A DNA stretch of 64,000 bases from a virus. Below the pieces are notes generated by a model. That model was given only the letters and a program-made list of their open reading frames with translations, made no database searches and was not told the origin of the DNA. Of this stretch, positions 3,961 through 58,525 are shown in pieces. Positions within the stretch are counted from its first letter, which is position 1. Each line of letters opens with the position of its first letter. Position numbers and translations under genes: made by a program. The stretch is taken from positions 62,001 to 126,000 of the IMG/VR virus record IMGVR_UViG_3300037010_003311; one strand, given 5' to 3'.

Positions 3961-6900
3961 ATGATAATCCCAGAAGTAAAATCAAGTACAATAACAAACT
4001 CAGTTGCACTTAAAAGTGTCGAATTTAGTATTACTAATAATGAGGAAGAGATTAAAAAATTGATGGGGATCTTAACATACGATCTCTACAAAAATAAACC
4101 AGGTGCTGTAATCAGAGAGCTTAGTACTAACTGTATTGATGCTCATAAGCTTGTGGCTAATGAATTAAAGTCCGGGCATATTGGATCAAAAACACCATTT
4201 GCTATCATACTCCCAAGTGATTATAATAATAACTTTTTAACTATCCGCGATTTTGGACCAGGGTTAACAGAAGAAGAAATGTTTACTATTTATCCAACAT
4301 ATGGGAGCAGTACGAAAGAGAATACTAATGATTATACTGGTTGTTTAGGACTAGGTAGTAAATCGCCGCTAGCAATCAGTCCAGACTTCTTAGTTACAAG
4401 TTATAATAACAATAAGGTTGCCGTATATAAAACTCAGATGAACGATGGTAAAACAAACTTAGATCTTCGTTGGACGGATTCGGTAATTAATGCGGAAATT
4501 GTAGATGATGTTACAATTGTAGATGATGTTACAATTGAACCAGAAGAGAATAAGCTTATTTTTAAAAATGATTATGCTCAATACTTCTGGTATAAAAATC
4601 ATATCCAGATGAATATAACACATAATAATTTTTTAATGATTGCTATCAATCTTAAAAATTTTTATAATATTGGGAACACTTTATCATATATCTTTATTTT
4701 AAGAACTGCTGATACTATTAACCATTATAAATTGGTCTTTAATATTAATAAATTAAATGAAGATGATTTAGATCAGAATAAAACATTTAATTATTATATA
4801 ACCGACCAGGATGATAATAAAATATTTTCTGGTGCCGAATCTAATATTTTAGATTACGATGATCTATCAGTTGTTGAGCAAAAAAATTATCATAATAATT
4901 TTAGTTTCTTTGGTATTAATCTTTTAGATATTTTACCAGAATTATCGGATAATAATTTAACTGGTTATATCTTCGAAGAAATATTTAAACCAGACGAAAC
5001 CAAGTTCCGAATTTTAAACGACGAAGAAATAAATGCGTTGGATATTACCGAACGTAGGGAATACAAACATAAATTAAAAGAATACGAGCTAAAGGAAGAT
5101 GCTCGTATAAAGAATGCTTTATTATATAGTTCTAGTTTTAATTCTGGTCTTAAAATTGAAGTACCAATTAGTGAACAATATAAGTCACAATTACTGAATG
5201 AAATTGAAAGACAATTATTATTCTTTGAGACTAAACCATATATAATTGAGTATACTAATTTTGGACCAATGGTTCATGAGTTGGTGGCCTACCAAGAGGT
5301 ATTACAACAATATTTTATTGAGTTTGTTCCAAACTTTTACCTTTCTGAAAAAAAAATATTAGATGGTAATATTTGGTGGATGGATAAAAAATATTCTGAT
5401 TTTATAAGTGCATATTCTAAAGTTACAAATCGTGGAGAAAATCTTTTATTAGTACAAGGTAATGTGACTTACCCGATTGATCTCCAAGCTATGATAGATA
5501 CACTTAAATCGGCTAGTCGGGATCCAAGATTTGAGATTGAAAGCGAATACTTACCGATAGTAGAAGCTTTAAGAACTGGTTACTACAATAGTATAGATGT
5601 AACATCTTTCCGCAACTTTTTCTGTGGAGTAATGTTTTTTGATATTGGTGAGATAAATTTTCATCCATCTCGCGAAAGCTTAAATTATGATATAACTACT
5701 AGTTTAAAAATATTTGATAAAATTGTACAAGTAATAAAACTAGTAGGAACCAAAATGATGGATACATTAAATGCGTGCATAGATGATATACATTTGGCTG
5801 GGGTAAAATATAACATTGGTAATCAAACTAATCTGATGTTTGAAAATGATAAGTATTTTGGGCCAACGAGATTAAATCTTATTGGTAATATTTTTCCAAA
5901 AATTTTACTAAATATTACTCCGGAAAAAACGGTTCTTGAAAAATTAAAAGAATTATATAAACCAGGCGAAAAATTAGTACAACTTACTACTACGAAGCGA
6001 GACCCCGGTAGTGAAAATCCAGAAATTGGTAAAGTGACTTCTAATAGGGCCAGTAACTATAAGGTTGCGACAGGTTATAATTTTGAGAACGCTTTATTAA
6101 CCGCTCCATTATCCACAGTATTAGTATTTGTCGATTCTTGGAAGAGTCGAAAAAATTTTATGGAACACTATATCGACATTATAAATTATTATATTGGTAA
6201 AGCTAAAACCGAAGACCAGGAAGCAGTAGCGGACTATCACGAAAAGAATCCAGATACTCTATATGAAGACGCACCCAGAAAGCATTGTAAAGTAATAGGT
6301 TCATCTAGCATTCAATTGGTAGAATGTAAAGTGCAAGGGCTACCAACCCTAACATCTATTGATAATCCTAATTATGGTTTATTCCAACCTATTTTTATTA
6401 ACCGCGAGCACCTAAAAGATGAAAACATTAGTCCAGAAGATTTTATGAAAGCACTTGGTATGGCATCATATAATGATATATATCCTCGCGCATTTAATTT
6501 AAAAGATGAAATAGCTAATCTTATTAAAATTGGTAAAGCTTCTTTACCAGAAAAAACTAGATCTTCAACTGCTGGGATACAAAAGGCTATTGGTACTATT
6601 AAAATAGACACGATTGGAAAATCTTCGTTATCCTTCTCAGAGTCTAATCTTTATTATAAGAAAAAACTAAGGGATGAGCAATTGGTTGAGATATTTGATA
6701 AAATTTTGGCCGCAAATAGTAATCCAGATTTAACTTCTATCAATAAAACAATAATAATTCTACCTTTAAATAAACGTGGAGAACGTACCAAAATTAATCA
6801 CCAATTCTTTAATTTGTATAATCATGAGAATCATAGTAGCGAAATTTATAACTTAATGTTAGTAAGTAAGTTTGATTCTTTCGCTACTAGACCAGATGGC

Positions 6901-8022
6901 GCTAATAATAATCATTATGTAATTAGCATTAATGAAAATATGTTTGAACAGGTGCGTGATGAATTAAATGTTCTAGCTAATAATACAAAGTATCTGGCTG
7001 GAGGTATTAAGATTTTAGATATTAATGCACCGGAAACGATTGATGTATTTTTTGATCATATCGTTAAAACATATAGCAAAAAGGTTATTGATATTACTCA
7101 AGTTGGTGAAATCATGATTGATCCACGTTATATTTATAATAGGTTAAATACTCATTTAAATAAAATATTTACTAATATCACGGAATATGAAAATTTTAAA
7201 CATAATCCATATCCTAGGCTGATAAAAGAATTTTACTTTTCTTGGTATGTATTGCATAATACTGTTTTAAATAACGAACAATCGCAGTTAAATAGACATA
7301 CGACTCTAATTCTGAAAATTTTCTTATATAAAGCTTCGGATATTGCTTTACCTCAAGAAATAATAAATAATATCACATTTGATATATATACTAAATCTAT
7401 ATATGGTTCTAATAAAAACAGAACATTAATTTTAGAACATATATTAAAAAAGTATAATGAAATCAAACCAAAATTTATTCAAATCTCGAATAATAATATA
7501 TTTGATTTAAATCGTTTGGAATATAATAGTTCCGGTATTAATAAAAATGAGTATAAGTACCCATTATTGAATAATATTCTACATGTTATTAGTAATAAAT
7601 CAATACTTGACCTTAAAAAGAATAATACAAATTTTGATAAATTGGTCAATCGGTTTGAAAAAATTAACCCGAATATTTATCGTAACGTAGAAAATGTTTT
7701 AACTAACTATCTAAAAGTATATGTTGAGGATTTCATGAATATCGAACACAATATAAATTTTTTAGATTTTGATAAAACCGGAACATTACTAAGTAATGGG
7801 GAAATGCAATATAAAATACTAGCTAGTACTTCGATTAACCGATTACAGAATCAAGAGACTAAAAATAAAAAATTGAAGAGTTTAATCTTTGGGAAGGAAT
7901 ATAAAAAGCAAAAACAACTAGCAATGAAAGTAATTGCCGACATGTATGAAGAAGTTGTTGAACAAACCGATCAAGAATGTAGTATCCAAAGCGGGGACAG
8001 TTGCAGCACATCTGCTGCATAA
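3961..8022 (+). CDS. rIIA-like GHKL ATPase, very large (1353 aa)
   Basis: The N-terminal 140 residues carry the GHKL ATP-binding (Bergerat) motifs. These are the N-box VIRELSTNCIDAH (50-62), the G1 box RDFGPGL (96-102) and the lid GCLGLGSKSP (127-136), laid out as in T4 rIIA. T4 rIIA is roughly half this length, so about 600 extra residues of unknown fold follow. rIIA acts with rIIB at the membrane in protecting infected cells from exclusion and early lysis; that role is known for T4 and only inferred here. The C-terminus is Cys/Ser-rich (CSIQSGDSCSTSAA). AAAGG precedes the ATG. No rIIB-like gene is adjacent. Confidence 0.7.
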   Translation: MIIPEVKSSTITNSVALKSVEFSITNNEEEIKKLMGILTYDLYKNKPGAVIRELSTNCIDAHKLVANELKSGHIGSKTPFAIILPSDYNNNFLTIRDFGPGLTEEEMFTIYPTYGSSTKENTNDYTGCLGLGSKSPLAISPDFLVTSYNNNKVAVYKTQMNDGKTNLDLRWTDSVINAEIVDDVTIVDDVTIEPEENKLIFKNDYAQYFWYKNHIQMNITHNNFLMIAINLKNFYNIGNTLSYIFILRTADTINHYKLVFNINKLNEDDLDQNKTFNYYITDQDDNKIFSGAESNILDYDDLSVVEQKNYHNNFSFFGINLLDILPELSDNNLTGYIFEEIFKPDETKFRILNDEEINALDITERREYKHKLKEYELKEDARIKNALLYSSSFNSGLKIEVPISEQYKSQLLNEIERQLLFFETKPYIIEYTNFGPMVHELVAYQEVLQQYFIEFVPNFYLSEKKILDGNIWWMDKKYSDFISAYSKVTNRGENLLLVQGNVTYPIDLQAMIDTLKSASRDPRFEIESEYLPIVEALRTGYYNSIDVTSFRNFFCGVMFFDIGEINFHPSRESLNYDITTSLKIFDKIVQVIKLVGTKMMDTLNACIDDIHLAGVKYNIGNQTNLMFENDKYFGPTRLNLIGNIFPKILLNITPEKTVLEKLKELYKPGEKLVQLTTTKRDPGSENPEIGKVTSNRASNYKVATGYNFENALLTAPLSTVLVFVDSWKSRKNFMEHYIDIINYYIGKAKTEDQEAVADYHEKNPDTLYEDAPRKHCKVIGSSSIQLVECKVQGLPTLTSIDNPNYGLFQPIFINREHLKDENISPEDFMKALGMASYNDIYPRAFNLKDEIANLIKIGKASLPEKTRSSTAGIQKAIGTIKIDTIGKSSLSFSESNLYYKKKLRDEQLVEIFDKILAANSNPDLTSINKTIIILPLNKRGERTKINHQFFNLYNHENHSSEIYNLMLVSKFDSFATRPDGANNNHYVISINENMFEQVRDELNVLANNTKYLAGGIKILDINAPETIDVFFDHIVKTYSKKVIDITQVGEIMIDPRYIYNRLNTHLNKIFTNITEYENFKHNPYPRLIKEFYFSWYVLHNTVLNNEQSQLNRHTTLILKIFLYKASDIALPQEIINNITFDIYTKSIYGSNKNRTLILEHILKKYNEIKPKFIQISNNNIFDLNRLEYNSSGINKNEYKYPLLNNILHVISNKSILDLKKNNTNFDKLVNRFEKINPNIYRNVENVLTNYLKVYVEDFMNIEHNINFLDFDKTGTLLSNGEMQYKILASTSINRLQNQETKNKKLKSLIFGKEYKKQKQLAMKVIADMYEEVVEQTDQECSIQSGDSCSTSAA

Positions 8023-10339: not shown

Positions 10340-11332
10340 ATGCTAAAGTTTATTAGTATAAAAGATCCCCATTTAAGTTTAGGTTTTCAGAATCGGCTTC
10401 GATACGATTACCAAAGTGATATTATGAATAAATTAAATTTTATTCGTAATTATGTAGCAGAGAATCAGGTTGACGCCATTTTATTAACTGGTGATATAAC
10501 TGATTCCAATTATGAACGAAAATGGTCATTTAAACAGTATGTAAAAAATAAGAGAGCATTCCAAGCTTTAAAAGGTAATGGATCTGATGATCATGTACAG
10601 CTATTAAGCTGTATTGGGAACCACGATATGTTTTTTGGTCTCGAAGATGGAAATGATACAGTGTTTGATGAACTGGTACGGGAAAATGTAATTCATAACA
10701 TTACTAATTACCCGAAAGGGTTTACGACACCAAATTCTAATAAAGTGGTAAAAGTATATGGTGTAGATTATTCAAGTAATAAAGAAACTATATTTGAAAA
10801 ACTAAATGTTATAAATAATGATAGTTTTATTAATACTCAATATTTTAAAATTGTAGTTATGCATAACAACCTTACACCGTTACCGGAAAGATTAACTGAA
10901 TTCACTTATGATGAGTTACAGGCTAAGTTTCCAAATATCAATATTTTTATTGGTGGTCACTATCATATAGGTTTTCCCTCGGTTCAAGTAAAAGGTACCT
11001 GGTTTATAAACAATTGGAACCTCACCAGAGTAGTTCGAGATTATGACGTCACTTTAGATCAGCATACGCCAGAGTTTGAAGAAATCACATTCGATGATAA
11101 TTTAAACTTGGTATCAGTAAAGACCATAAAATTGCCGTTTAAGACGTTTGAAGAAACTTTCGTCCCAAACGCAATTAACATTATCAAAAAATCTAAACAG
11201 GAAATTTTTGAATTTTTCCAAATAGATTTTGAAGAGATTGTTACAAAACAAACTGACTTAGAAATTCTAGAGCAGTTTGATTACGAACCAGAAATTATAC
11301 AACTAGCCTTACAATATCTAAATGGTGATTAA
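10340..11332 (+). CDS. SbcD/Mre11-like (T4 gp47-type) metallophosphoesterase nuclease
   Basis: The calcineurin-type metal ligands appear in order: D9-x-H11, GDITD (51-55), GNHD (93-96), a MHNN histidine near 177 and GGHYHIG near 208-214. This is the Mre11/SbcD/gp47 nuclease core that processes DNA ends with an SbcC/Rad50-type ATPase. The likely partner is the unusual permuted ATPase at 31883-33934, 20 kb away rather than adjacent. The length of 330 residues matches T4 gp47. Confidence 0.75.
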   Translation: MLKFISIKDPHLSLGFQNRLRYDYQSDIMNKLNFIRNYVAENQVDAILLTGDITDSNYERKWSFKQYVKNKRAFQALKGNGSDDHVQLLSCIGNHDMFFGLEDGNDTVFDELVRENVIHNITNYPKGFTTPNSNKVVKVYGVDYSSNKETIFEKLNVINNDSFINTQYFKIVVMHNNLTPLPERLTEFTYDELQAKFPNINIFIGGHYHIGFPSVQVKGTWFINNWNLTRVVRDYDVTLDQHTPEFEEITFDDNLNLVSVKTIKLPFKTFEETFVPNAINIIKKSKQEIFEFFQIDFEEIVTKQTDLEILEQFDYEPEIIQLALQYLNGD

Positions 11333-15064: not shown

Positions 15065-15460
15065 ATGATACCAGTTTCAAAATTACTTGGCCCTATTAAG
15101 GATGAAAAAACTATGGAAATTAGGGAAACCTATGATCCAGAATGTGCTCACTATATAGTTGTGAATAAAAAATCAAATCATGGTTATAATGTAAAATTTA
15201 TTACCGATAAACCAAACAATAGTATTACCCCAACCTGTAATGTTAAGGTTTCGTGTAATTGTGATAATTTTCAATTTATGTATGCGTATGTATTATATAA
15301 AAATGATGGTTTATATAATCCCCATCGTTTAGTACTGACACCACCAGTTGAGAAAAATCCAAATATGATTATTGGAGCGTGTAAGCATGTAAAATTAGCC
15401 CTCTATAGAAAAATGACTAATAATGTACAAAAACTTGCAACTACGGATGGGGATATCTAA
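15065..15460 (+). CDS. SWIM-like zinc-finger protein, 131 aa
   Basis: The spacing VSCNCDNFQ...(about 35 residues)...GACKHVKLALY is the C-x-C...C-x-H pattern of SWIM zinc fingers, which bind nucleic acid or protein. The stop overlaps the RNA polymerase beta' N-fragment start as TAATG. It is therefore the first gene of the RNAP block and may be a polymerase-associated factor. AAAGGATTAAG precedes the ATG. Confidence 0.6.
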   Translation: MIPVSKLLGPIKDEKTMEIRETYDPECAHYIVVNKKSNHGYNVKFITDKPNNSITPTCNVKVSCNCDNFQFMYAYVLYKNDGLYNPHRLVLTPPVEKNPNMIIGACKHVKLALYRKMTNNVQKLATTDGDI

Positions 15461-16782
15461 TGGCAATAAAAATAGATTTTACTGAATTTACTTTGGATCT
15501 ACCAGAAGTCAAAGATGCTTCTATTTATAAAACTGGTACTACTAATCACCAGTTTTCGGAAACCGGATTATATTCCGAACAGATTTTTGGTCCATTAAAA
15601 AATTATAAGTGTAGTTGTGGAAACGTAGTATCTAAAATAAATGCTGGTATACGGTGTGAAATATGTAATGTACTTTGTGAATCAGATAAATTACGAAATA
15701 CCCAATTTGCTAGAATAGAATTACCAAAAGGTATTTTTATTATTCTACCTACACTTATAAAAAATTTACATGATATCTTTGGACAGAATCCAATTAAAAG
15801 TATTATGGATAAAGCGCAGTATCAACATAATTGTGACAGACCTTATTATTTTTTAAATAACTTTTCTAAATTAGTAAAGATTCCAGAAAAGGATAAAGAT
15901 AAAGATAACTATCTAAAAGATTATCCAGTTTATGATATATCTTCTTTACATAGATTATTTCAATATCTTAGAGATGAGACTGATGCTTTAGATTCTAGAA
16001 TTTCAAAAAAATATCTAGATTATGTTTTTGTAGATTATGTTTTAGTGCTACCAGTTAATAGTAGACCGATTGTAAAGATTACAAATGAAAAAAGTAATGT
16101 TCATCCAATTACAGAAAAGTATGCGGAAATATTAAAAAATAAGAGCAATAGTCTTGTTGATGACTTTCATGAAATCAATGAAGAGATGTTTGGTGCAACT
16201 GTTTATAAATATCAAAATAGTGTTAATCAGTTATACGATATAATTTTGCAGAAAAACTTTCAGCAGAAAGAAAGCGTGAGTCGTGATTACATGATGGGTA
16301 AAATTATTGAACATTCCGGCCGTTTTGTTATTGTGCCAAATCCAATTCTAAAACCATATCAAATAGGTTTACAATCTCACGCTATCAAAGAGATAAATGT
16401 CCCGGAAATTAAACGATTCATTTATCAAAAATATGCTCAAAACTCAAGTGATGAAAAGATTATGGATTATCTAATAAATATAGATTCTCATAATTCATTT
16501 AGTTCAGTATTTAATATATCTGATGATTTACTAAAAGAATTTTTGGCAGAACAAGCCAAGAATTTAATTTATGTTTGTGAACGCCCACCTGTGTTATGGA
16601 AGTATAACGTTACCGCCTTTTTTCTAGGTTTAGTAAATTGGTCTGAAAAAGATGTTACTAGAGTTATGGTACCATTTACTTCAGTTGTAAAGAAAATAAT
16701 ATCTAAATTCACTAAACCAGACGCGAAGAAAATGAATTATAGAAAATCAATTAAAAGTGTTTCTGTAAATTTTGGTAAGTAG
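15460..16782 (+). CDS. Phage RNA polymerase beta' subunit, N-terminal fragment
   Basis: This follows bacterial RpoC from its start: GLYSEQIFGPLKNYKCSCG (36-54), the zinc ribbon cysteines C51, C53, C66 and C69, then VLPVNSRPIV, GKIIEHSGRFVIVPNP and QIGL. The last is the RpoC pattern of the double-psi barrel entry. It ends soon after ERPPVLWKYN, just before where the catalytic NADFDGD loop belongs. That loop opens the next gene. The split resembles those in phiKZ-type jumbo phage RNAPs. The product would assemble with the three other fragments here to transcribe phage genes. Confidence 0.88.
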   Translation: MAIKIDFTEFTLDLPEVKDASIYKTGTTNHQFSETGLYSEQIFGPLKNYKCSCGNVVSKINAGIRCEICNVLCESDKLRNTQFARIELPKGIFIILPTLIKNLHDIFGQNPIKSIMDKAQYQHNCDRPYYFLNNFSKLVKIPEKDKDKDNYLKDYPVYDISSLHRLFQYLRDETDALDSRISKKYLDYVFVDYVLVLPVNSRPIVKITNEKSNVHPITEKYAEILKNKSNSLVDDFHEINEEMFGATVYKYQNSVNQLYDIILQKNFQQKESVSRDYMMGKIIEHSGRFVIVPNPILKPYQIGLQSHAIKEINVPEIKRFIYQKYAQNSSDEKIMDYLINIDSHNSFSSVFNISDDLLKEFLAEQAKNLIYVCERPPVLWKYNVTAFFLGLVNWSEKDVTRVMVPFTSVVKKIISKFTKPDAKKMNYRKSIKSVSVNFGK

Positions 16783-16850: not shown

Positions 16851-18740
16851 ATGGAAATTTTAAACAATATGGTCATGCATTTAAATAGTTTAAATGCAAA
16901 ACGCTTTAACAGTGACTATGATGGTGATGGTCTTGGGTGTTACTCTTTACATAGTACCCAAGCTAAAAAAGAAGCAAGGCGATATATGACGCCTATATCA
17001 AATATCCAACATGAACACAATCTCGAAATGGTGGATACGCTAGAGCATGAAAGTATTCAAGCGGCATACATGCTTTCGCTTAAGGGATGGAAAAATTTCG
17101 ATTCAAATAAAATCGAATTAACTTTACAAAACATAAGCGAATTCCAAGCAGATATAAATACAGTAATTAAAACTCCAAATATAGCAGTAAGGCTTATAGA
17201 TGAAGATATAGTATTACCATATAATTCTGTTCTAATTAACGCATCATTCGATATAGAAGAGTTAATATATACTGATAGTAGATTATTGTATAAAAAGAAT
17301 TTACTAGAACTGATTAAGCTTTTATACGACTTTGTAGAGAATGCTAAATTTCATGATAAATTACATAACTTCAATAAAGTACTACTTGAATGTAGTACAG
17401 TTGTTAGTTATTGTAATACAAGTTTTGAACTGAATCACTTTGCGGTGAATCATAAAGCAATTGAGGATTTCAAAAAAACACTTATAAATGAACCATTTAC
17501 TGGTTTCCATCAAAACCAAATGCTATTTGATACACATGTTAAAAATCTTATTTGTCATGATGAAGATAATATTCTAACGAATGTATTCAATTCTGGAGCA
17601 AGGATCAAAAATGTACAGTTGTTAAAAGCTGCTAGTAATAATGGTATCCCAACTGATATTAATGGTAGAGCATTTAAGCATAATATTAAAAACTCATTAC
17701 TTGATGGATTAACCGAAGAAGAGTTCTTTATGACTGGGGATAGTGCAAGACTAGCCTTAGCTCAAAGGCAAGATTCTATTCCAAAGGGTGGTGAACTTCA
17801 ACGGAAGATATATTTTACAACTGGATTCTTGCAACTCAATAATATTGCAGATTGTGGATCAGAAAAATATTTTACAATAGTGGTTAGTGATAGACATCAT
17901 TTAGCTTCCTTATATGGAAGATGGTATATTACTGATGATAATCCAAAACTACGTTTCGTTCGTTTAGATGATACTAAATTAATTGGTACGGAAATTAAAG
18001 TTCGTTCCCCAATTTATTGTAAGTCTGGTGATTATGCTATTTGTGATAGATGCTTTGGTTCTAAAAAACCAGATTCAGATAACATTGGTGCAGCTATTGG
18101 ATCATATATTGCGGAAAGTATCATTCAGTCAATTCTTAGAACTCACCACTTTAGTGGAGCTTTCATTACTGAGATTAAAAAAGAATTCAATGAAATTATT
18201 GAATCGTTACAATTCGAATCACCTAACATTATAAAAGGTAGTCCAGAAAATATTGATCGGTATAAACAATATCTTTTAGATAATTACTATAAGGAAGAAG
18301 ATTTTACTATAACCAAAACTAGTAAAAACTGCTACGAAATTGATGTTATTAATTTACCATTAAATGATGACTCTGTTAAAAAACTACAGGTTATTACTTC
18401 ATATATTGATAAGAATCGAGATAGTGATAATTTGATTTCACCAGAAGAGATATATAAATTTCTTAAAAATGAAATCATTATGCCTAATGATATTTTGAGT
18501 ATATATGTTGAATTAATTATTGGTATTCTATTTTACGATGAAGATGGTATTATGATTAGATATTCTGATAAAGAGATTAACTTCCAGTTGGCTTTAAAGA
18601 ATGTTATTTCGCATATTGATCCAAGAATGTCTTTCTTCTATGGATTCAACGATGGTAAGATTAGTGATTGTTATGATGCCGAAACCGAGGGAACGGTCCT
18701 AAAACATATGTATCAGGATTTAACTGATATCTATTATTAA
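16851..18740 (+). CDS. Phage RNA polymerase beta' subunit, catalytic C-terminal fragment
   Basis: FNSDYDGDG (19-27) is the catalytic magnesium loop (NADFDGD), with D22, D24 and D26 intact. Further on are the second zinc site (IADCG, then VRSPIYCKSGDYAICDRCFG), and IGSYIAESIIQSILRTHHFS. The last is the bridge-helix/trigger-loop-adjacent motif that reads [22 protein letters not shown] in bacteria, here lacking the GEPGTQ core. The gap from the N-fragment is 68 nt with its own AAAGG site, so this is a true gene split. About 200 residues after this motif are family-atypical. Confidence 0.88.
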   Translation: MEILNNMVMHLNSLNAKRFNSDYDGDGLGCYSLHSTQAKKEARRYMTPISNIQHEHNLEMVDTLEHESIQAAYMLSLKGWKNFDSNKIELTLQNISEFQADINTVIKTPNIAVRLIDEDIVLPYNSVLINASFDIEELIYTDSRLLYKKNLLELIKLLYDFVENAKFHDKLHNFNKVLLECSTVVSYCNTSFELNHFAVNHKAIEDFKKTLINEPFTGFHQNQMLFDTHVKNLICHDEDNILTNVFNSGARIKNVQLLKAASNNGIPTDINGRAFKHNIKNSLLDGLTEEEFFMTGDSARLALAQRQDSIPKGGELQRKIYFTTGFLQLNNIADCGSEKYFTIVVSDRHHLASLYGRWYITDDNPKLRFVRLDDTKLIGTEIKVRSPIYCKSGDYAICDRCFGSKKPDSDNIGAAIGSYIAESIIQSILRTHHFSGAFITEIKKEFNEIIESLQFESPNIIKGSPENIDRYKQYLLDNYYKEEDFTITKTSKNCYEIDVINLPLNDDSVKKLQVITSYIDKNRDSDNLISPEEIYKFLKNEIIMPNDILSIYVELIIGILFYDEDGIMIRYSDKEINFQLALKNVISHIDPRMSFFYGFNDGKISDCYDAETEGTVLKHMYQDLTDIYY

Positions 18741-21930: not shown

Positions 21931-23907
21931 ATGAGTATTGTTAGTCCCCAAATTGAGGTATTTGAACCATTTTCCTCTAACACTGATGCTAGTAGAACAA
22001 ACATGAGTTCAAAGCAGTTACTACAGGTTATTGTTGCTGAAGGTACCGAGATACCATACATTCTAAATAAAAACTATAAAGTTATGACGACCGTTAATTC
22101 ACCATTTGTAAAAATTGCTGAAGAAGATGGAGTAGTAATCTACAACAATAATAATCTTATTGGATATGTATATAAAGAAACAAAACGAATTACCTTTGAC
22201 CATTTACCAGATACTAAGAAAATGGTAAACAATAGCCTAACGCTGAAATATATAACCAAAGAGCCTAGATTTAAAAAGGGTGACGTCCTTTGGGATTATA
22301 CTAATCAAGATCCTGAAACGAATATGCCAAGAACTGGATATAGAGCAAACATTATGTATTCTAGCTTCTTTGGTTTTAATGCGGATGATGCAATGGTTAT
22401 ATCTGAAAGTTTTGCTGAGAGATGCCGCATAGATTATTCGGAAAAAATATTTATGCCTATAACACCGGAAATTAAATACATTATGAATGAAGGTAGGAAT
22501 AAGTATTTAACTGGACCAGATGAAATTACACCAAATAGTTTTTATATTCAATACAATAAAATCGATACATCTAAACATTTTTTAACCGAATTAATAAATG
22601 TAAATAATTCTGTTTCAAAATCAGCTAGTAAAATGGTTGAAGCGATTGCTGGTGGAAAAATTTTATCTTTAAAAATTCATAAGCTTTCAGATTTATCTTT
22701 CAATGAATTAAAAGCTAGATATGTTTATACTCCAACGTTAATTGATGAGATTGAGGTATTGTATAATGATCAAGCTGGAATTCATAAACATATTCTGGAT
22801 TCATTGCGGTTGTATATGCAAGAAGATGACGCTGAAGCTATTCATTCAAAACTGATTAAAAACTATTATTCAGTAACTGAGTTCAATGATATATTTATGA
22901 CGGATTTAGCGGATAATTATAAGATTGATAAAGACTCGATTGATATAGTTATCGAACTTGAAATTCATAAAGATCTACCAACTTGTACGGGTGATAAATT
23001 TACCAATCTATTTGCTGGTAAAGGAGTTGTCTCATTAATCATTCCTGACGAATTAATGCCGAGAGATGAAGCTAATGATCCAGCTGATATCATCTTTAAT
23101 CCACTTGGATTATTTGGTCGTAATAACTGGGGAACAGTTTTTGAAATGGCTTTAGCTAAGATAATAGAAGATGTTGAAGAAAACATTAATAATCGAACTC
23201 AAACCCTTAGACGATTAAAGTTTATTAATAAGCATTTTATTCGTCTATACGATGAAGACTACTATCATAACGTAGAACAACTTATCGAAAACTTTGATGA
23301 GCGGTTTGATGAGTTTAAACATCAAGTACAAACCAAAGGGTTTTTTCTATATGTTGAAAATTTTCCAAAAATAGCATATAATGATTTCATTAATGATTTT
23401 GTAAATCCATATGAGGCAACATTTAATGTCAATATAACTAAGAAAGAGAAAACTATCTTTTCAAAAGAGTTGATGCAATTTATGCGAGATAAAGGATTTA
23501 AAACAACTTTGTTTAACTCAGCTCAGGATATTGAACAAGATGTTTATTTTGGTCGTAATTATTATATGAAACTTTTCCATACTGCCTGGTCAAAATATAA
23601 TGCCGTTGGTTTTAGTTCAAGCTACTCACGTATAACTGGACAACCAGCACGGGGTCGTAAAAACAAAGGTGGTTTACATATCAGTTGGCAAACTTTTGCG
23701 GCATTACTTGGTTATAAAACTAAGAATGCAGTTCTAAAAGAATTCTACTCTATTAAAGCGGATGTTGCTATAGCTGATAAAAAGATTTTCATTAATAGTT
23801 TTATAAACAGTGGTGAATACATACTAAAAAACAAGTATTTCTCACAAACTAAGCAAACTTTGACTAATGCTTTGAAAATGATAGGGATGATTTTTAAGAG
23901 TGATTGA
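21931..23907 (+). CDS. Phage RNA polymerase beta subunit, C-terminal fragment
   Basis: It begins where the N-fragment stops: EPFSSNTDASRTNMSSKQ (RpoB PFLEHDDANRALMGSNMQ). Then come FGFNADDAMVISESF (GYNFEDAIVIS), TGDKFTNLFAGKGVVS near 353 with IPDELMP and NPLGLFGRNNWG, and near the end ITGQPARGRKNKGGLHIS. These are the GDKMAGRHGNKGVVS, LNPLGVPSRMNVGQ and GGQRFGEMEVW regions that contact nucleic acid and the active site. AAAGGAAATAA precedes the ATG. The homing endonuclease gene overlaps its 3' end by 8 nt. Confidence 0.88.
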   Translation: MSIVSPQIEVFEPFSSNTDASRTNMSSKQLLQVIVAEGTEIPYILNKNYKVMTTVNSPFVKIAEEDGVVIYNNNNLIGYVYKETKRITFDHLPDTKKMVNNSLTLKYITKEPRFKKGDVLWDYTNQDPETNMPRTGYRANIMYSSFFGFNADDAMVISESFAERCRIDYSEKIFMPITPEIKYIMNEGRNKYLTGPDEITPNSFYIQYNKIDTSKHFLTELINVNNSVSKSASKMVEAIAGGKILSLKIHKLSDLSFNELKARYVYTPTLIDEIEVLYNDQAGIHKHILDSLRLYMQEDDAEAIHSKLIKNYYSVTEFNDIFMTDLADNYKIDKDSIDIVIELEIHKDLPTCTGDKFTNLFAGKGVVSLIIPDELMPRDEANDPADIIFNPLGLFGRNNWGTVFEMALAKIIEDVEENINNRTQTLRRLKFINKHFIRLYDEDYYHNVEQLIENFDERFDEFKHQVQTKGFFLYVENFPKIAYNDFINDFVNPYEATFNVNITKKEKTIFSKELMQFMRDKGFKTTLFNSAQDIEQDVYFGRNYYMKLFHTAWSKYNAVGFSSSYSRITGQPARGRKNKGGLHISWQTFAALLGYKTKNAVLKEFYSIKADVAIADKKIFINSFINSGEYILKNKYFSQTKQTLTNALKMIGMIFKSD

Positions 23908-25039
23908 TTTAACTGGGTTGAAATTGTTATACCCCGAAGCTGAACCGCGGCAAATTAAAGCCGCGGTTAAATACCAAGAAAAATTTTCTTTAACTTTGGA
24001 AAATTTAAAATGCTTAAACCCAGATTGTAACAGAATGCGAAAATGGGGAGATACAGTTTCTGGTTTTTATTACACTTGCTCAAAAGAATGTTTTAATAAA
24101 ACTAAATCGATTAGAGAAAATAAAAAGTTAGAAGCCAGAATCAAAACTAGTTTATCAAAATATGGAATTAAGAATGCGGCCAGTTTACAAACTATTAAAG
24201 AACTTAAAATCAAAAATAGTAGATTAAATTATAATTGTGATAGTCCAAATACCCTAGAATCTAAAATTTTAAAAACTAAAAAAACTTGTATTGATAAATA
24301 TGGTACAAGTTGTACGGCTCAGAGAATAGAAATTAAAACGATCATTATGAAAAATAATGTTAAACATAATGTTGACTTTTCGGCTCAACGGCATATTACT
24401 AATTTAAAATATTGGGGGAATAAAAACTTTTGGATTGATAATTTTATAACAAACGATAATCATTTTGATTATATAAAATGTATGTTATATTTTAATTGTA
24501 AACAACCAACTGTTCATAATCAAATTAAAAAACTTGGTATAAAATATACCAAGACCGCAGCAACTAGTTTACAAGAACAAGCTATAATACCATATTTAGA
24601 AAGCTTAGGTGTATCGGCGGTAGCAAATGAACGGGCCATAATACCAAATCAGGAACTAGATATTTGGATACCTAGCTTAAAACTTGCAATAGAATGGAAT
24701 GGTAGCTATTGGCATAGTTATCATGAAACCATAGGGACAGGACCTAAGCAGCTAGATTATGACTTTTGTAAGTACCGGCACCAACGAAAGGCTTTAGCCT
24801 GCTTGGAGGTGGGTATTCGGTTGCTTCAGTTATATGAAGATATGAACTTAAGCAATTGGAAAGAGCAAATAGATAAATTTATAGTTTATGATCCAGACAC
24901 TGGGATAGATATATATGACTTGGATTCTGGTTGCTATCCACTTAACCCAGATTTCGAAACACTAGAACCCGAAAGCCGAATGGTGCTCAAAAACCGCACT
25001 TTATGGAACGCAGGTAAAATTAAAATTAAAAGGAAATAA
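23900..25039 (+). CDS. Free-standing homing endonuclease, Vsr/PD-(D/E)XK-like with zinc finger
   Basis: The N-terminus has a four-Cys finger (CLNPDCNRM...CSKEC). KYG-type DNA-binding repeats follow (SLSKYGIKNAAS, DKYGTSCTA). The nuclease core is LDIWIPSLKLAIEWNGSYWH near 255-275, then KALACLEVGIRLLQLYED. These motifs match phage homing endonucleases of the Hef-like group, which cut unoccupied alleles to spread themselves. The start codon is GTG and overlaps the RNAP beta C-fragment by 8 nt, so the element sits exactly behind a conserved gene. It lacks the extra C-terminal domain of its relative at 58525. Confidence 0.7.
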   Translation: MIDLTGLKLLYPEAEPRQIKAAVKYQEKFSLTLENLKCLNPDCNRMRKWGDTVSGFYYTCSKECFNKTKSIRENKKLEARIKTSLSKYGIKNAASLQTIKELKIKNSRLNYNCDSPNTLESKILKTKKTCIDKYGTSCTAQRIEIKTIIMKNNVKHNVDFSAQRHITNLKYWGNKNFWIDNFITNDNHFDYIKCMLYFNCKQPTVHNQIKKLGIKYTKTAATSLQEQAIIPYLESLGVSAVANERAIIPNQELDIWIPSLKLAIEWNGSYWHSYHETIGTGPKQLDYDFCKYRHQRKALACLEVGIRLLQLYEDMNLSNWKEQIDKFIVYDPDTGIDIYDLDSGCYPLNPDFETLEPESRMVLKNRTLWNAGKIKIKRK

Positions 25040-26923: not shown

Positions 26924-28168
26924 ATGGTACTTTCGCAGGATAATATAAAAACATTTTCATGCCATCTTAAAACAATGGGGGCTTATGTTCAGCAGCCTAA
27001 CCCAGCAATTGTTGGGTTAAGTGATTTCCAGGTTATTGGTAGTCAGGATGCAAGATCGCTATATCCAACGATTATGATTTTATGCAACATTGGTTACGAA
27101 ACATTATATGCAAGATTGTATGATACAAATATTGTTGGTAAGATGATTGGTTATATAAAACATTCATTTAACGACAAAAAGAACGTTGACCCAGCAGTGG
27201 CAGGTTTCAAGAATGCTTTACAGATATTAGTGAAAAACTATACAAACCGTAACGATATCCTAAAGAAAAAAGAATTCCAAGAGTTTACAGTTGATTATTA
27301 TTGTAAACTTTTTAAAACGATAATTTCATATCCTGGAAAAATAGAAGATATTTTTTCTCCCAAAGATGATGAAACATACTTTCTATTAAAGAGCTGCCTA
27401 TTTCCAATACTGGAAGCTATTACTTGGCTTCATGAAAATAATCGTGGTTATAATGCAACTTGTATTGATTGGGTATTTTATAATTCTGGATTTGCGAATA
27501 AATACAAGGGGCAAACATTTTATGTCTTTGAACATATAAATTCGGTTAAAACTAAGTTAGTTGAATATAGTATAGATACCATCAGTAGTTTATTAAATAC
27601 ATATCTGGTTAACCCATACGGTACTCTGTTTTATAGACACAATGATAAAAAATCATTCGAGGTTGATCTAATTATCAAAGGTATGGGTGACCGCGGTTTT
27701 ATTAAAGATCAAGGGTTGATTCTAAAAGCGATTAAATCTAAATGGAATTCTGTACCAGAATCATTAAAACGTGGTTTAAGTATTGCTGGCCATATAGATG
27801 AAACGGTTGCTAATGACCTAGTTAGTTTGGTTGGTGACTCGGATGAAAAAATGAGAGTTAAGCAACTTAATAACTTATTGTCTATTATTATGGGTACAGA
27901 TGGTATTAATGATTTAGATATTCTAGCCAAAAAAATTGAAGTAATTATCTCACAGAAAAACAATGCTAGTAATGGGGTTAAAACAACTTTGAATACCGGA
28001 TATGGTATATATGCTATGACTATTTGGGAATATGGAAATGCACTTATTGCAAACAGTATTACCAACGCTGGTAAGATTTATGGTATTAAGTTATTCCAGC
28101 AGATAGCGAGTAACATATTAACTGAAGAGCAGAACAACATTTCAAAAACGGTTGGCAATGTTGCGTAG
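26924..28168 (+). CDS. Family B DNA polymerase, T4-type palm/fingers fragment (motifs A and B only)
   Basis: DARSLYPTIM (42-51) is motif A (DxxSLYPS) with catalytic D42. NPYGTLFYRHNDKKSF and the helices around GDR match the T4/RB69 stretch after it (SPNGMMYYKDRDG). KTTLNTGYGIYAM near 352-364 is motif B (KxxxNSxYG). The upstream exonuclease domain and the downstream DTDS motif C are absent, so this is one piece of a split polymerase; other parts must be encoded outside the window. GGAGTAAA precedes the ATG, so it is translated as its own gene. Confidence 0.72.
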   Translation: MVLSQDNIKTFSCHLKTMGAYVQQPNPAIVGLSDFQVIGSQDARSLYPTIMILCNIGYETLYARLYDTNIVGKMIGYIKHSFNDKKNVDPAVAGFKNALQILVKNYTNRNDILKKKEFQEFTVDYYCKLFKTIISYPGKIEDIFSPKDDETYFLLKSCLFPILEAITWLHENNRGYNATCIDWVFYNSGFANKYKGQTFYVFEHINSVKTKLVEYSIDTISSLLNTYLVNPYGTLFYRHNDKKSFEVDLIIKGMGDRGFIKDQGLILKAIKSKWNSVPESLKRGLSIAGHIDETVANDLVSLVGDSDEKMRVKQLNNLLSIIMGTDGINDLDILAKKIEVIISQKNNASNGVKTTLNTGYGIYAMTIWEYGNALIANSITNAGKIYGIKLFQQIASNILTEEQNNISKTVGNVA

Positions 28169-28834: not shown

Positions 28835-30271
28835 ATGTGTAGTTTTATGGTAATAAATGGTCCAATTGAAAAGGTAGTAAAATTTACTCCAGATCATATT
28901 AGCTTCGATGATGTTATCCAAGCATTACGTGTTAAAGGCAACCTGAATGATGATATTGATTTATTTATGTATAATCATAATCTGGGGGAATTACTACAAC
29001 TTACTGCTGCAGAATTACGAGCCACCAATGAACCAAAATTTGAATATATGGGTTCGGCTTATGAAAAGTTTACTAGAACACCAGAAGATTACGAACCGGA
29101 TGATATAGTTACTTTAGTAGCATTTAGTCGGTTGGCACCAGAGATGGAAGTTGATGCGAAACAAAACACCTTGTCACAACCATATTTAAATACCAAGTAT
29201 AAAACAATTACTATGGTACATGGGACTATCCCGAAAGCCGAAGAGTTCGTACCAGAGGTACAGGTGGATACCGATATTTTTATGCACCGTAGTTTTCAGG
29301 ATTGTATCAATTATACTGAACAGGTTGGTGGTAAGATTTCAGCGGTGCAAATACCTATGACTAAACTTAGTACTATATTATGGTATGATAATGGCTTAGG
29401 TAGATTCGAATATAAATCAATGGATGGAAAAGTTTGGATTGGTACAAACATTAATTTATTTAATCATTTTTATTATTGGGCTAAATCTTTTATGCTACAA
29501 CCTGCCCCTTATATACAACTAGTTTTTCCAAAAACTTTAATTCTTGCCAAGTCGCGTATAATTTCACTTTTTAGTGGTGGGTTAGATATAACTTGTAGTA
29601 CACTAAATGTAATAGAAACTAAACTTAAACAACGCTCACAATTAAAAAGTGTGGACTTATGGTACTTTGATTGGGGCACAAGAGCTTCAGCCGAAGAACA
29701 AGCAGCTGGGCAACGCTTTAAAGATAAATTGGAGAAAGATTTCGCTACCAACGGTAGCACAGCTACCGTTAATTATGAAGTTATCCCAACAGAAGGTATG
29801 TTTAGGAATATATTACAAGCATGTGATACAACAGTTCGGTTAACCGATAAAGATGCAACCGGGGCTGGACATCATGAAGCGGAAGCTGCAATTTCATATG
29901 TACCATACCGCAACCAGTTCCTATTAACTCTTGCGGCAGCTAAAGCCGAACAACTTTATCCAGGGGAAAATGTAACTATAGTTATAGGTGCAAATCTTAG
30001 TGAAGGAATGGTTTATTTAGATAATAGTGAATCATTTGTAGATGCTATTAATAAAACTATTAAGGTTGGTGGACAAAGAACTTATAATTTCGAAGTAGTT
30101 GCCCCATTCGTAAATAGAACTAAAACCGATATGGTAGCTGAATGCTTAAAACGTGGGTATGACCTTAGTACAGCGTTTAGTTGTTATTTTCCGGTTGATG
30201 GTAAAGAATGTGGTGTATGTGGTAGCTGTTTACTTAAACAAAGGGCGTTAGAAAGAGGAGGAAATAAATAA
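28835..30271 (+). CDS. Gat-QueC: glutamine amidotransferase fused to QueC-like PP-loop enzyme
   Basis: The chain starts MC, giving Cys2 as the nucleophile of a class II (Ntn) glutamine amidotransferase, with MVHGTIP near 127. From about 240 it follows QueC: FSGGLDITCS (PP-loop, SGGxDS with I for S), AISYVPYRNQFLLTLA, and the zinc site CGVCGSC near 460. QueC makes preQ0; Gat-QueC fusions in archaea and some phages convert preQ0 to the archaeosine base G+ (known for E. coli phage 9g DNA). A 7-deazaguanine in phage DNA is inferred. The following gene starts in a TAATG overlap. Confidence 0.8.
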   Translation: MCSFMVINGPIEKVVKFTPDHISFDDVIQALRVKGNLNDDIDLFMYNHNLGELLQLTAAELRATNEPKFEYMGSAYEKFTRTPEDYEPDDIVTLVAFSRLAPEMEVDAKQNTLSQPYLNTKYKTITMVHGTIPKAEEFVPEVQVDTDIFMHRSFQDCINYTEQVGGKISAVQIPMTKLSTILWYDNGLGRFEYKSMDGKVWIGTNINLFNHFYYWAKSFMLQPAPYIQLVFPKTLILAKSRIISLFSGGLDITCSTLNVIETKLKQRSQLKSVDLWYFDWGTRASAEEQAAGQRFKDKLEKDFATNGSTATVNYEVIPTEGMFRNILQACDTTVRLTDKDATGAGHHEAEAAISYVPYRNQFLLTLAAAKAEQLYPGENVTIVIGANLSEGMVYLDNSESFVDAINKTIKVGGQRTYNFEVVAPFVNRTKTDMVAECLKRGYDLSTAFSCYFPVDGKECGVCGSCLLKQRALERGGNK

Positions 30272-31026
30272 TGAGTGCATCCGGAGGAGCGGATTTGGAT
30301 AAAATAAAAGATAAGATTGAGAAACTTCTTAATCTTAGTCTTAGTGATAATGAACATGAAGCTAGTTTAGCTATGGAAAGAGCTCTTAAGCTTATGAATG
30401 AACATAATCTTTCACGAGATGAAATTTATAAACAGGCTATGGAATCAAAAACCGTTTATTTAGATAAATATATTGCACATGAATGGATACTTAAACTAGC
30501 TGGAGCAATTGCTAAAATATCTGGTTGTTATATGGTGTATGGTCAAGGAAGTAAGAAATATAATACTTTTGCTAAACTAGTTCTTGTTGGTCGGGAAACC
30601 GATATATTAAATACTGAATACTTAATTCTATTTCTAATTAGGAATATAGAATTAAAAACCATGAAGTACAAACTACACCTTAGAAAAGAGTTAGGTAGTA
30701 CTACCCAAGAGAAAAACCATAAAGAGCTGAAGTCTTATAGACTTGGATTAATCCATGCAATAGTTACTAGAATTAAAAAACAGCAATCTAAATTCTTTGG
30801 TGAACAAGAATTAGAAGGGTGTTTGATCGTACCAGTTGATATTCGAGCCCAAGAAGCGGAACAACATTTTAAGGATATTTGTAAAATTGAAATCCAAGCA
30901 AAAGCATTTGAGACTACTATAGATAAAGTTTTTTATGAAGCTGGTAGAAAAGCAGCAAATGAAATTCAATTAAACTCAGGCATAAAAGATTATGGTATAA
31001 CGCCAGAGCAAAAACTTTTAAATTAA
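30271..31026 (+). CDS. DUF2786 domain protein, 251 aa
   Basis: Residues 9-50 (KIKDKIEKLLNLSLSDNEHE, then AMERALKLMNEHNLS) are the DUF2786 pattern: an N-terminal helical domain common in phage and plasmid proteins of unknown function. A larger C-terminal domain follows, rich in helices, with the usual Tyr/Arg segment (KSYRLGLIHAIVTRIKKQ). TAATG overlap with Gat-QueC and GGAGG before the start show coupled translation. Confidence 0.65.
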   Translation: MSASGGADLDKIKDKIEKLLNLSLSDNEHEASLAMERALKLMNEHNLSRDEIYKQAMESKTVYLDKYIAHEWILKLAGAIAKISGCYMVYGQGSKKYNTFAKLVLVGRETDILNTEYLILFLIRNIELKTMKYKLHLRKELGSTTQEKNHKELKSYRLGLIHAIVTRIKKQQSKFFGEQELEGCLIVPVDIRAQEAEQHFKDICKIEIQAKAFETTIDKVFYEAGRKAANEIQLNSGIKDYGITPEQKLLN

Positions 31027-31035
31027 GGATTAAGA

Positions 31036-31893
31036 ATGTATAAAAAAAGAATTATGGAAGAAATTTCAATTATGGACGAGGAGTTCGAACCATTTGATAT
31101 TGCTAATTATAATGAACAACAATTAATCGATGAAGATAAAAGATCTTTTATAATTAAGATACCAGAAAAAGTAATTAATCTTATTCTTAAAAATAAAGAG
31201 ATTGATGCCATCGAATATAATGGTGTAATATGGGTTCGGGATATAGTTGAAACTTTATATCAAGTTACATTCAATCATTATCTGGTTAGAGGTTTAATTA
31301 CTAGTAACCCAGAATTTAAACCTTATATTTTTGAGGTTAAAATTTTATCGACCGAAAATAAAAAAAATACTTTAGTAAAACTATTTACTGATGCTGCGAA
31401 CAATAATCAAAATGTTATTTATCAGATCTCTAATACTTTTGGAACCGAGTTTTCTTTAGTTCAATTATCTGGAGATAATTATGTGCAACATATGTCAGCT
31501 AATCTACCTGAGAGTGAACAATTGAAAAAACATAGTTTTTTAGAGATCACTACTACTAAGGTAAATGGTTTTAATCTGGCAAATGATTTAGTACAAAATA
31601 TAAATGACATAGCCGAATATTTAGTAAATACTGGGTATAACGAATTTAATGATATTATATATCTTGGTGATGATATAGCGGATTTTGATTTGGTATTTGA
31701 ATTACGAACTAAGTTCGTTACTGGTAAGTACAATTCTTTAAATCAGTTTCGGTCAAATAGTATGGTACAGTTGACTGGATATTTAACTCAAGAACAAGTA
31801 GAAGAACTAAAAGGATCAAATCTTTGGTCAAGGCCGGTATATTCAACCTATGTATTGAAATCAGATTATTATAAGGGTAAGCATGCAAAATGA
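31036..31893 (+). CDS. Hypothetical protein, 285 aa
   Basis: A mixed alpha/beta protein with an acidic N-terminus, central IIYLGDDIADFDLVFELRTKF and a C-terminal YSTYVLKSDYYKG. AAGGATTAAGA precedes the ATG. It overlaps the permuted SbcC-like gene by 11 nt, so a partner role is possible. No family recognised. Confidence 0.5.
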   Translation: MYKKRIMEEISIMDEEFEPFDIANYNEQQLIDEDKRSFIIKIPEKVINLILKNKEIDAIEYNGVIWVRDIVETLYQVTFNHYLVRGLITSNPEFKPYIFEVKILSTENKKNTLVKLFTDAANNNQNVIYQISNTFGTEFSLVQLSGDNYVQHMSANLPESEQLKKHSFLEITTTKVNGFNLANDLVQNINDIAEYLVNTGYNEFNDIIYLGDDIADFDLVFELRTKFVTGKYNSLNQFRSNSMVQLTGYLTQEQVEELKGSNLWSRPVYSTYVLKSDYYKGKHAK

Positions 31894-33934
31894 TCAAATA
31901 CGAGATAGCCGAGAACTAAATATACCATCATTACAATCGGAATTAAGTACTTACCAAATTAAATACCAAGTAAGTACGAATCAGATTAATACATATAATA
32001 CAAGAATTGATCAAGATAGTAAAAAGTTAGTGGAACTAGAACTCTTTCTTAAAAAATTGGAAAGTACCCATGAATTACTTACTAAATTGAAGCAATTCAA
32101 AATGGATAGTAAAAAAGAATTTATTCTTAGGACTATTAATACAGCTCTAAAAGATATTTTTCAAAAAGATATTCGTATTGATATAGAAGCTAATTCAAAT
32201 CTCGAAAACGGCAAGATGAATATGAAGTATGATATTATCCTATTTCAAAACGATATCGAAATAGCTAGAAATGAAAAGCTTATTGAAAGTAATGGTGGTG
32301 GAGTACTTAGTGTAATCTCCATTCTATTTAAAATGTTAGTTGGCTTTATTTATAGTGAAAATAAGTTTTATATGTTCGATGAAAGTTTAAGTCAAGTATC
32401 TGAAGAGTATCGGCCAAGACTTAGTAAATTTATTCACGAATTCTGTTCTAAACAAGGTTTCACTATAGTTATGGTATCTCATACTAAAGACTTGGATGAG
32501 TACGCGGATACAATTTATTCTTTATCTGGCACATTCGATAAGAATCTAGTGCCAGTATTAAAGATAGATGAAGTTCTTGGTCACCAACCAGAGAATGATT
32601 ATATCTATGCGAAAATAAAAAATTTTCAAAGTATCGTTGATTTAGAATTCCGGTTTAAAGGCTTTACAATTATACGTGGAGAAAATAATATTGGAAAGAG
32701 TGCCTCACTAAGAGCAATCAATTCCGTAATATTTAATGACTTCGATAAAAGTCATCAGCGTATAACCAAAGATCGATCAATTGAAACGAGCATTGAATTT
32801 GGTTACTATCATAAAGATGAAGAGACCGGAGCAATAGATGATACTAAAAAAATTAGAGTCTCTTATAAAAGCCAAAAAATAAACTATGAATTCGATGGTA
32901 TGACATTTGCTGGAAAAAATCTAGCTTTTGATAAGGTTAAAGAAAAAATTGAAAGTATAGGATTCAAGTATATTAATCTGAAAGAGACTTATAAAAACTT
33001 TAAAGGTAATCTCAAGGACCAAACGGAGCGAATAAGTCTAACGACGCAACATGATGGTCTGTTTTTGATTGGTGCTAAGAATTCTGATTCTAGTAAAGTT
33101 TTTGATTTCTTATTTGATTCATATCATATTGCAAACGCTATATCTAAAATAAAAATAGATATCAATAATAATCTGAATGAATTTAACGATATTTCAGTTC
33201 GGATACTAAATGATAAGCGTATGCTAAATAAAGAGCTTATACACCAGCAAATACACTTATACAAGTACTATATTATTATGATCAAAATAAATAGATTACT
33301 TTATCATAAAGTATGGAATAAACAAAACATTCTCACAAATTTGATTTCTACAAAAACAGCTATTGAAATGGTTCTCTATATTGAACAGATGAAAGCTTCA
33401 ATCGGTATAGTTAATGCTAAATTATTAACATTTGGAATTGAAAAACTAGAAGCAAAATTAGCTACAGTAACTTCGATCATTAAATACTCAACGAGTTTAT
33501 TAGTTGTAAATAAATTGATTAGTACTAGAAATGATATTAATCGGATAATCACAAATCTAAATATTGAAAAATTAGACGCTCGATTACAAGTGGTTACTAA
33601 AATCATTAATCTTAAATATTGGAAAAATTTTATTTTAAGCACATTGCAACAAAATGCAGTTTATACGGATATACAAAATAAAATTGCAAACAATATGACA
33701 AAGGTTAATAATTATGATTTGATTATAGCTAAGATGCGTAATATAGTTAGTTATCAAGTGTTTCGTGATAACATTTTAAGATTTATGCAAGAATCGATAA
33801 GATTATCTATCGCAATTGATACTAGTACAAGCCGGTTACAATATTTAGCCGAGGCATTTAATAATCTTAAAACCGAATTCAACCTGACCCCATGCCAAAA
33901 TTGTGGCGGTATAGGTTATTCACATGTGCATTAA
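31883..33934 (+). CDS. Circularly permuted SbcC/Rad50-like ATPase with C-terminal CxxC
   Basis: In order: a coil (about 10-95), then the ATPase half normally at the C-terminus: signature SNGGGVLSV (about 137), Walker B FYMFDES (about 160-167), H-loop MVSHTKDL (about 195). Next comes the half normally at the N-terminus: KIKNFQSIVDLEF and Walker A RGENNIGKSAS (266-273 core), then long helices and CQNCGGIG (C671, C674) at the very end. Rad50/SbcC has the opposite order with CxxC (zinc hook) in the middle. Thus the chain appears opened at the hook and joined at the old termini. It likely works with the SbcD-like nuclease. Confidence 0.7.
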   Translation: MQNDQIRDSRELNIPSLQSELSTYQIKYQVSTNQINTYNTRIDQDSKKLVELELFLKKLESTHELLTKLKQFKMDSKKEFILRTINTALKDIFQKDIRIDIEANSNLENGKMNMKYDIILFQNDIEIARNEKLIESNGGGVLSVISILFKMLVGFIYSENKFYMFDESLSQVSEEYRPRLSKFIHEFCSKQGFTIVMVSHTKDLDEYADTIYSLSGTFDKNLVPVLKIDEVLGHQPENDYIYAKIKNFQSIVDLEFRFKGFTIIRGENNIGKSASLRAINSVIFNDFDKSHQRITKDRSIETSIEFGYYHKDEETGAIDDTKKIRVSYKSQKINYEFDGMTFAGKNLAFDKVKEKIESIGFKYINLKETYKNFKGNLKDQTERISLTTQHDGLFLIGAKNSDSSKVFDFLFDSYHIANAISKIKIDINNNLNEFNDISVRILNDKRMLNKELIHQQIHLYKYYIIMIKINRLLYHKVWNKQNILTNLISTKTAIEMVLYIEQMKASIGIVNAKLLTFGIEKLEAKLATVTSIIKYSTSLLVVNKLISTRNDINRIITNLNIEKLDARLQVVTKIINLKYWKNFILSTLQQNAVYTDIQNKIANNMTKVNNYDLIIAKMRNIVSYQVFRDNILRFMQESIRLSIAIDTSTSRLQYLAEAFNNLKTEFNLTPCQNCGGIGYSHVH

Positions 33935-58476: not shown

Positions 58477-58525
58477 AATTCCTTTTTCTGCGACAGGAAA
58501 CCGATGGGTGGGATTATCTCCCACC
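58477..58525 (-). repeat. 49-bp direct repeat, distal flank of homing endonuclease; contains terminator-like hairpin
   Basis: It is identical to 59931-59979 except for one base (58507 G versus 59961 A). It includes the stem GGTGGGA/TCCCACC (58507-58525) and the TTTCCTGTCGCAGAAAAAGG tail on the minus strand. It follows the homing endonuclease stop directly. Confidence 0.7.

Follow-up and report, generated by a model that had tools for sequence, protein, structure and literature searches.

Does the gene at 31883..33934, on the plus strand of a viral genome fragment, encode an SbcC/Rad50-type ATPase whose chain has been opened at the zinc hook and joined at its old ends? In the usual drawing of a Rad50, SbcC or SMC protein, a single chain runs out along an arm, turns at the hook or hinge and comes back. 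The fragment, hereafter the window, is the whole 64,000-nucleotide stretch analysed (positions 62,001 to 126,000 of IMG/VR record IMGVR_UViG_3300037010_003311), and all features of the gene given below lie on its plus strand.

A single gene with reversed ATPase lobes

The gene is one open frame that begins with ATG, encodes 683 amino acids and contains no internal stops. Its overlap with the gene upstream is 11 bases long, and AAGGG at 31873..31877, 5' of the ATG, is its likely ribosome-binding site by direct reading. The encoded protein carries a complete set of head motifs, which run from the ABC signature SNGGGVL (residues 136-142; 32288..32308), Walker B FYMFDES (residues 162-168; 32366..32386) and the H-loop VSHT (residues 198-201; 32474..32485) to Walker A GENNIGKS (residues 266-273; 32678..32701), and are followed by a helical arm and a closing CQNC. 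This order is opposite to that of SbcC/Rad50, where the Walker A lobe leads and the signature/Walker B lobe closes the chain. Across five permuted proteins, the glycines at 138-139, D166, E167, G266, G271, K272 and S273 are invariant, as is Gln389 (33047..33049), probably the Q-loop glutamine, a function that we infer. In the second phage protein described below, ISQT replaces VSHT, with Gln aligned to His200. The split family does not conserve the signature serine and mostly has DRGGGV or ARGGGV; in view of both, details of the ATPase may differ.

The original prediction, made before any search, had read these motifs in this order from one uninterrupted frame and proposed that it arises when Rad50/SbcC is opened at the hook and its old ends are joined. 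Both points held, as every motif was located by residue and the protein proved to be permuted, conserved and of the Rad50/SbcC type. Residues 20-211 match PHROG 15167 (E 1.5e-15) and residues 244-364 match PHROG 4747 (E 7.6e-6). Profile annotation overlooks the protein, which stays under the Pfam cut-off: PF13476 (AAA_23) matches the N-lobe (E 2.6e-5) with 21.4 bits against a curated family cut-off of 27. In the 226,657-base IMG/VR record from which the window is taken, this gene is the sole match to AAA_23 and the sole match to PHROG 15167.

The protein shares with T4 gp46, E. coli SbcC and archaeal Rad50 the Walker A, signature, Walker B and H-loop motifs, the helical arms, the CxxC and an SbcD-type partner, and differs from them in its reversed lobe order and in having the CxxC at the chain end.

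Permuted homologues in a second phage and on megaplasmids

A search for homologues with the same domain order, which the original prediction had named among its checks, succeeded in a second phage and on plasmids. The phage protein (662 amino acids, encoded in one uninterrupted frame at 5004-6992 of the 181-kb IMG/VR contig L005) has the permuted order, is 46% identical to the window protein over nearly its whole length and carries CGTCGG near its C-terminal end. Against plasmids, tblastn gave single-piece megaplasmid matches that cross the C-to-N junction. Searching with the protein from plasmid pMPPla107 returned 21 plasmid records from nine genera, in ten of which a single place accounts for most of the query; genera with matching megaplasmids include Pseudomonas, Vibrio, Variovorax and Rhizobium. 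We examined the proteins of 8 of the 21 records, and all eight have a C-lobe, then Walker A, then a CxxC towards the C-terminus (at 711 of 772 in the Acidiphilium protein). Members of this set, such as WP_162305755.1 on pMPPla107 and WP_085762326.1 of Vibrio vulnificus, share the permuted order and the terminal CxxC with the window protein, from which the plasmid ATPases differ in being megaplasmid-borne, only about 18% identical to it and a separate group in trees. They are annotated merely as 'AAA family ATPase' or 'hypothetical protein', and three of them exceed the AAA_23 cut-off. No further permuted proteins came from scans of genome contigs or from a viral scan with the plasmid sequences; both depend on nearly exact peptide words and carry little weight as negatives.

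The gene immediately after the permuted one encodes a metallophosphoesterase in Variovorax, where it is annotated as such, and in Rhizobium (Pfam E 5.6e-5). The neighbour in pMPPla107 (6547-7470 of our locus L106, the gene after the permuted SbcC) has no Pfam match, is similar to the Variovorax metallophosphoesterase along a stretch of some 57 residues close to its start and has DPL instead of DPH in its first metal motif; judged from these residues, it may be inactive.

Hook-split SbcC genes in phages

Relatives found by tblastn encode SbcC as two genes in Bacillus phage vB_BboS-125, Tunturiibacter phage Tunturi_5 and Microcystis phage Mvi-JY20, and also in the huge phage LR745208 and Microbacterium phage Magritte. 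Scanning viral contigs with the split N-halves gave 59 loci. In the HMM survey, a CxxC ends 58 of the 59 split N-halves, the C-halves measure about 211 amino acids and have no CxxC near their start (0/42), and the gene order is N then C in all 40 stretches that hold both halves. The CxxC aligns with Cys671/674 of the window protein in 36 of 37 non-redundant N-halves. The N-half corresponds to PHROG 16465, labelled 'exonuclease', and the C-half to PHROG 15167, labelled 'ATPase'; an SbcD-like gene is often nearby. With phages such as vB_BboS-125 and Tunturi_5 the window protein has in common the two halves, the break point and the CxxC that closes the N-half; the phages carry two genes, N then C, whereas the window carries a single fused gene, C then N. 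We place the break at the hook because the whole phage family has SbcC divided there into two genes. In BFVD, Foldseek matched both a 219-aa 'chromosome partition protein' and a 359-aa 'SMC protein' of Siphoviridae sp. ctYh54, which look like the split pair of one phage.

Several split loci show features of their own. The N-half of Magritte is gp155, about 93 kb from the C-half gene in the record; gp4, an ATPase encoded two genes past the C-half gene, was rejected for that role. The terminal CxxC is absent from some split N-halves, those of Magritte and relatives (L021:2339-3391, L063:9983-11068 and L089:1135-2196). One N-half of 706 amino acids (L033:4609-6729) loses its homology after residue 65 for a stretch of about 310 residues, which may be an intein or a different insertion close to Walker A. 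On Cetobacterium plasmid p3 (L108:4656-7690), a gene for an IscB RNA-guided endonuclease stands between the split C-half and the metallophosphoesterase.

Arms and zinc-hook motif

In canonical controls the CxxC lies mid-chain, at 287 of 560 in T4 gp46, at 505 of 1048 in E. coli SbcC and likewise in six other phage SbcC proteins. The window protein lacks a mid-chain hook between matched arms and has its CxxC, CQNC, at residues 671-674 of 683 (33893..33904), a motif with counterparts in the L005 protein and the eight plasmid proteins. Its arms are unequal. On the C-half side, AlphaFold2 predicts a single N-terminal helix of about 80 residues that leads into the head (residues 14-93; 31922..32161) and holds no cysteine; on the N-half side, about 250 residues form several predicted helices of low confidence (residues 413-666; 33119..33880), a region 28% identical to L005. 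Self-comparison by blastp found no internal repeats in the arm.

The original prediction had envisaged a hook formed from two chain ends. It was right about the topology; the cysteines, which number three in the whole protein (188, 671 and 674), supply a CxxC at the C-terminal end only. Each chain would contribute a single C-terminal CxxC, and sharing of zinc by two molecules would still be expected: two such motifs could bind one zinc as in Rad50, a dimerisation that we infer. Because the hook is located where the chain ends, no covalent loop closes the arm tip.

We cannot set aside the possibility, though we hold it to be the less probable one, that the ATPase is permuted and the C-terminal CxxC is no dimerising hook but a self-contained zinc knuckle or a contact to SbcD or DNA. 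The extra His in CQNCGGIGYSHVH would suit a knuckle, as would the at least one Cys or His that follows the CxxC in 43 of 58 split N-halves, the inequality of the arms and the N-halves that lack the motif (Magritte, L063, L089), while the similar CPxC core of canonical hooks and the placement of the motif, which matches that expected of a canonical hook once the chain is opened at this point, speak for a zinc hook.

Origin of the permutation

Profiles place both lobes of the window protein closer to the split genes than to canonical SbcC. The split C-half HMM scores 93 bits against it (E 8e-27) and the split N-half HMM 52 bits (E 3e-14), against no match for the canonical C-lobe HMM and 15 bits for the canonical N-lobe HMM; comparing permuted with split halves, hhalign gave E 3.5e-13 (N) and 4.3e-19 (C). 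Halves were trimmed until all motifs aligned, as mixed alignments of full-length halves misplaced motifs. Maximum-likelihood trees set the split and permuted proteins apart from seven canonical proteins, with support of 99/97 for the C-half and 100/98 for the N-half. In the best trees, which contain long branches, the permuted proteins of phages and those of plasmids fall into two groups rather than one clade, and a single origin of the permuted forms is not rejected (p-AU 0.30 and 0.41). In a smaller N-half tree the permuted phage pair falls outside the split group (86/92), leaving the exact branching uncertain.

We favour, without proof and from sequence comparison alone, an origin by reverse re-fusion of genes already split at the zinc hook: a canonical gene would have undergone fission at the hook into N then C, one half would have been relocated, and the halves would have been fused again as C-N. 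An alternative that does not involve the split family is that a canonical SbcC gene was duplicated in tandem and then lost its outer halves, which is how textbooks explain circular permutation; this route could draw on the long branches and on the position of the phage pair in the smaller N-half tree. We regard it as unlikely, as both halves score far better with split-gene than with canonical HMMs, the enlarged trees put the permuted proteins with the split ones, and the break lies at the position where the split genes are divided.

Predicted structure of the head and integrity of the junction

The C-lobe of the head spans residues 95-218 (32165..32536), as delimited by AlphaFold2 and by Rad50 C-lobe profile matches, and the N-lobe residues ~240-395 (32600..33067), as supported by AlphaFold2, PF13476 and hhalign to split N-halves; the junction or linker between them comprises residues 219-240 (32537..32602). 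With a 54-row alignment, in which only two sequences cover the N-lobe past its first ~60 residues, AlphaFold2 gave a mean pLDDT of 66.8 and a pTM of 0.54. Residues 15-350 lie mostly at pLDDT 70-96, the junction at about 76 (residues 221-230) and 88 (231-240), and residues 400-683 mostly below 60, leaving the arm unresolved; with only the two permuted phage sequences, pLDDT was 38.8. Foldseek against the PDB returned SMC and Rad50 heads as its first matches (5h66_B, 1xex_B, 1f2t_B, 5dac_B, with 1f2u_A/C lower), and a five-row profile of the C-half matched Rad50 C-lobes (1ii8_B at E 6.9e-6, 3qkr_B, 1f2t_B; about 7e-6 to 2e-5). The PDB match 7rdr_A, a circular tendon repeat protein, was discarded as a designed repeat. 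Rad50 heads crystallised as two chains (1f2t/1f2u, 1ii8) thus appear among the matches of both the profile and the model; in these truncated constructs, N- and C-lobes are separate polypeptides that make one head, and in the window protein the lobes are fused in reverse order with the arm attached.

From the pLDDT through the junction and the completeness of the motifs we infer that a single ABC head is built from the two lobes of one chain, without PAE or coordinates to support it. Two separate incomplete heads would have refuted the original prediction; AlphaFold2 modelled the junction without a break and with fair confidence, and the single composite head remains unproven. A domain swap, in which the C-lobe completes the N-lobe of another chain and each permuted chain links two heads, is compatible with the short linker of about 20 residues, with the lack of a PAE behind the model and with the split relatives, in which heads built from separate chains must work since two proteins are encoded. 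It seems improbable to us given the continuity of the model across the junction (pLDDT 76-88) and the normal pairing of Rad50 N- and C-lobes in one chain, which makes pairing in cis the simplest reading.

The fusion itself is conserved at its seam. Junction residues 219-240 are 55% identical to L005, on par with the flanks, and the codons differ at 5 of the 12 identical residues, a sign that selection acts on the protein in its joined form. An assembly or sequencing artefact that fuses two genes near residue 235, the other event that would have overturned the original prediction, can be dismissed almost entirely even though many relatives encode the halves as separate genes, because the same fusion occurs in the independent contig L005, the same order recurs in eight plasmid proteins and the linker is conserved with synonymous changes. 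An internal start at the junction was also rejected; the only candidates nearby are ATG197, TTG204 and GTG223, with no convincing ribosome site.

Partner nuclease and proposed mechanism

The presumed partner is an SbcD/Mre11-like metallophosphoesterase encoded at 10340..11332 on the plus strand (PF00149, E 1.8e-9). It is the sole PF00149 match in the genome record of the window, and a 46%-identical homologue lies near the permuted gene in L005. Taken together, we consider it very probable that the gene at 31883-33934 encodes a circularly permuted SbcC/Rad50, inferred to form one head per chain and to act with this SbcD-like nuclease. The protein is most likely a working SbcC, closed at the head and open at the hook, whose activity is inferred. 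Its chain runs from the C-lobe through a short linker to the N-lobe, the helical arm and the terminal CxxC; the linker would bridge the old N- and C-termini, and the chain would turn at the head. Two heads would dimerise on ATP, if the inferred ATPase activity is real, and the head dimer, together with the nuclease that it is inferred to stimulate, would process DNA ends for recombination-dependent replication or repair. In T4, gp46/gp47 act on DNA ends in recombination-dependent replication or repair.

Other genes of the window

Three separate frames (15460-16782, 16851-18740 and 21931-23907) match RNA polymerase beta-type subunits; the multi-subunit RNA polymerase of this large phage is therefore encoded piecewise. 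A partial family B DNA polymerase at 26924-28168, covering PHROG 262 profile positions 382-550 of 856, suggests another split gene. Two homing endonucleases (23900-25039 and 58525-59928), both of PHROG 3339, might be related to gene splitting. We also noted a 478-aa protein (28835-30271) with a QueC-like domain confined to its second half, an adjoining DUF2786/DUF7168 protein (30271-31026) and an unusually long RIIA-like protein of 1353 amino acids (3961-8022). In L005, an 887-aa protein that is RIIA-like by eye stands directly before the permuted SbcC.

Implications

We found no description of permuted or hook-split SbcC/Rad50 in the open-licence papers searched, where 'circularly permuted' referred to genomes or methylases and not to SbcC; both forms are probably undescribed so far, which is not proved. 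Fusions of Mre11 with Rad50, in which the nuclease is joined to the ATPase, also occur in viruses and plasmids (PMC3175470). They resemble the present case as an unusual gene architecture within the same system, and differ from it in what is fused; 'permuted' in that paper concerns genome termini.

On balance, we lean towards the view that SbcC/Rad50 has a so far undescribed branch, common to phages and megaplasmids, whose members are broken at the hook, either through division into two genes or through fusion in reverse order, and have no covalent closure of the arm tip. If this holds, the arm tip would be joined by zinc only, or by nothing, and tethering and DNA-end processing would proceed without a continuous chain through the hook. 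The permuted chain would provide a head made of one polypeptide whose arm ends are free, and a hook-cut family with a permuted branch that turns at the head would make the need for a covalent hook loop in tethering and end processing directly testable.
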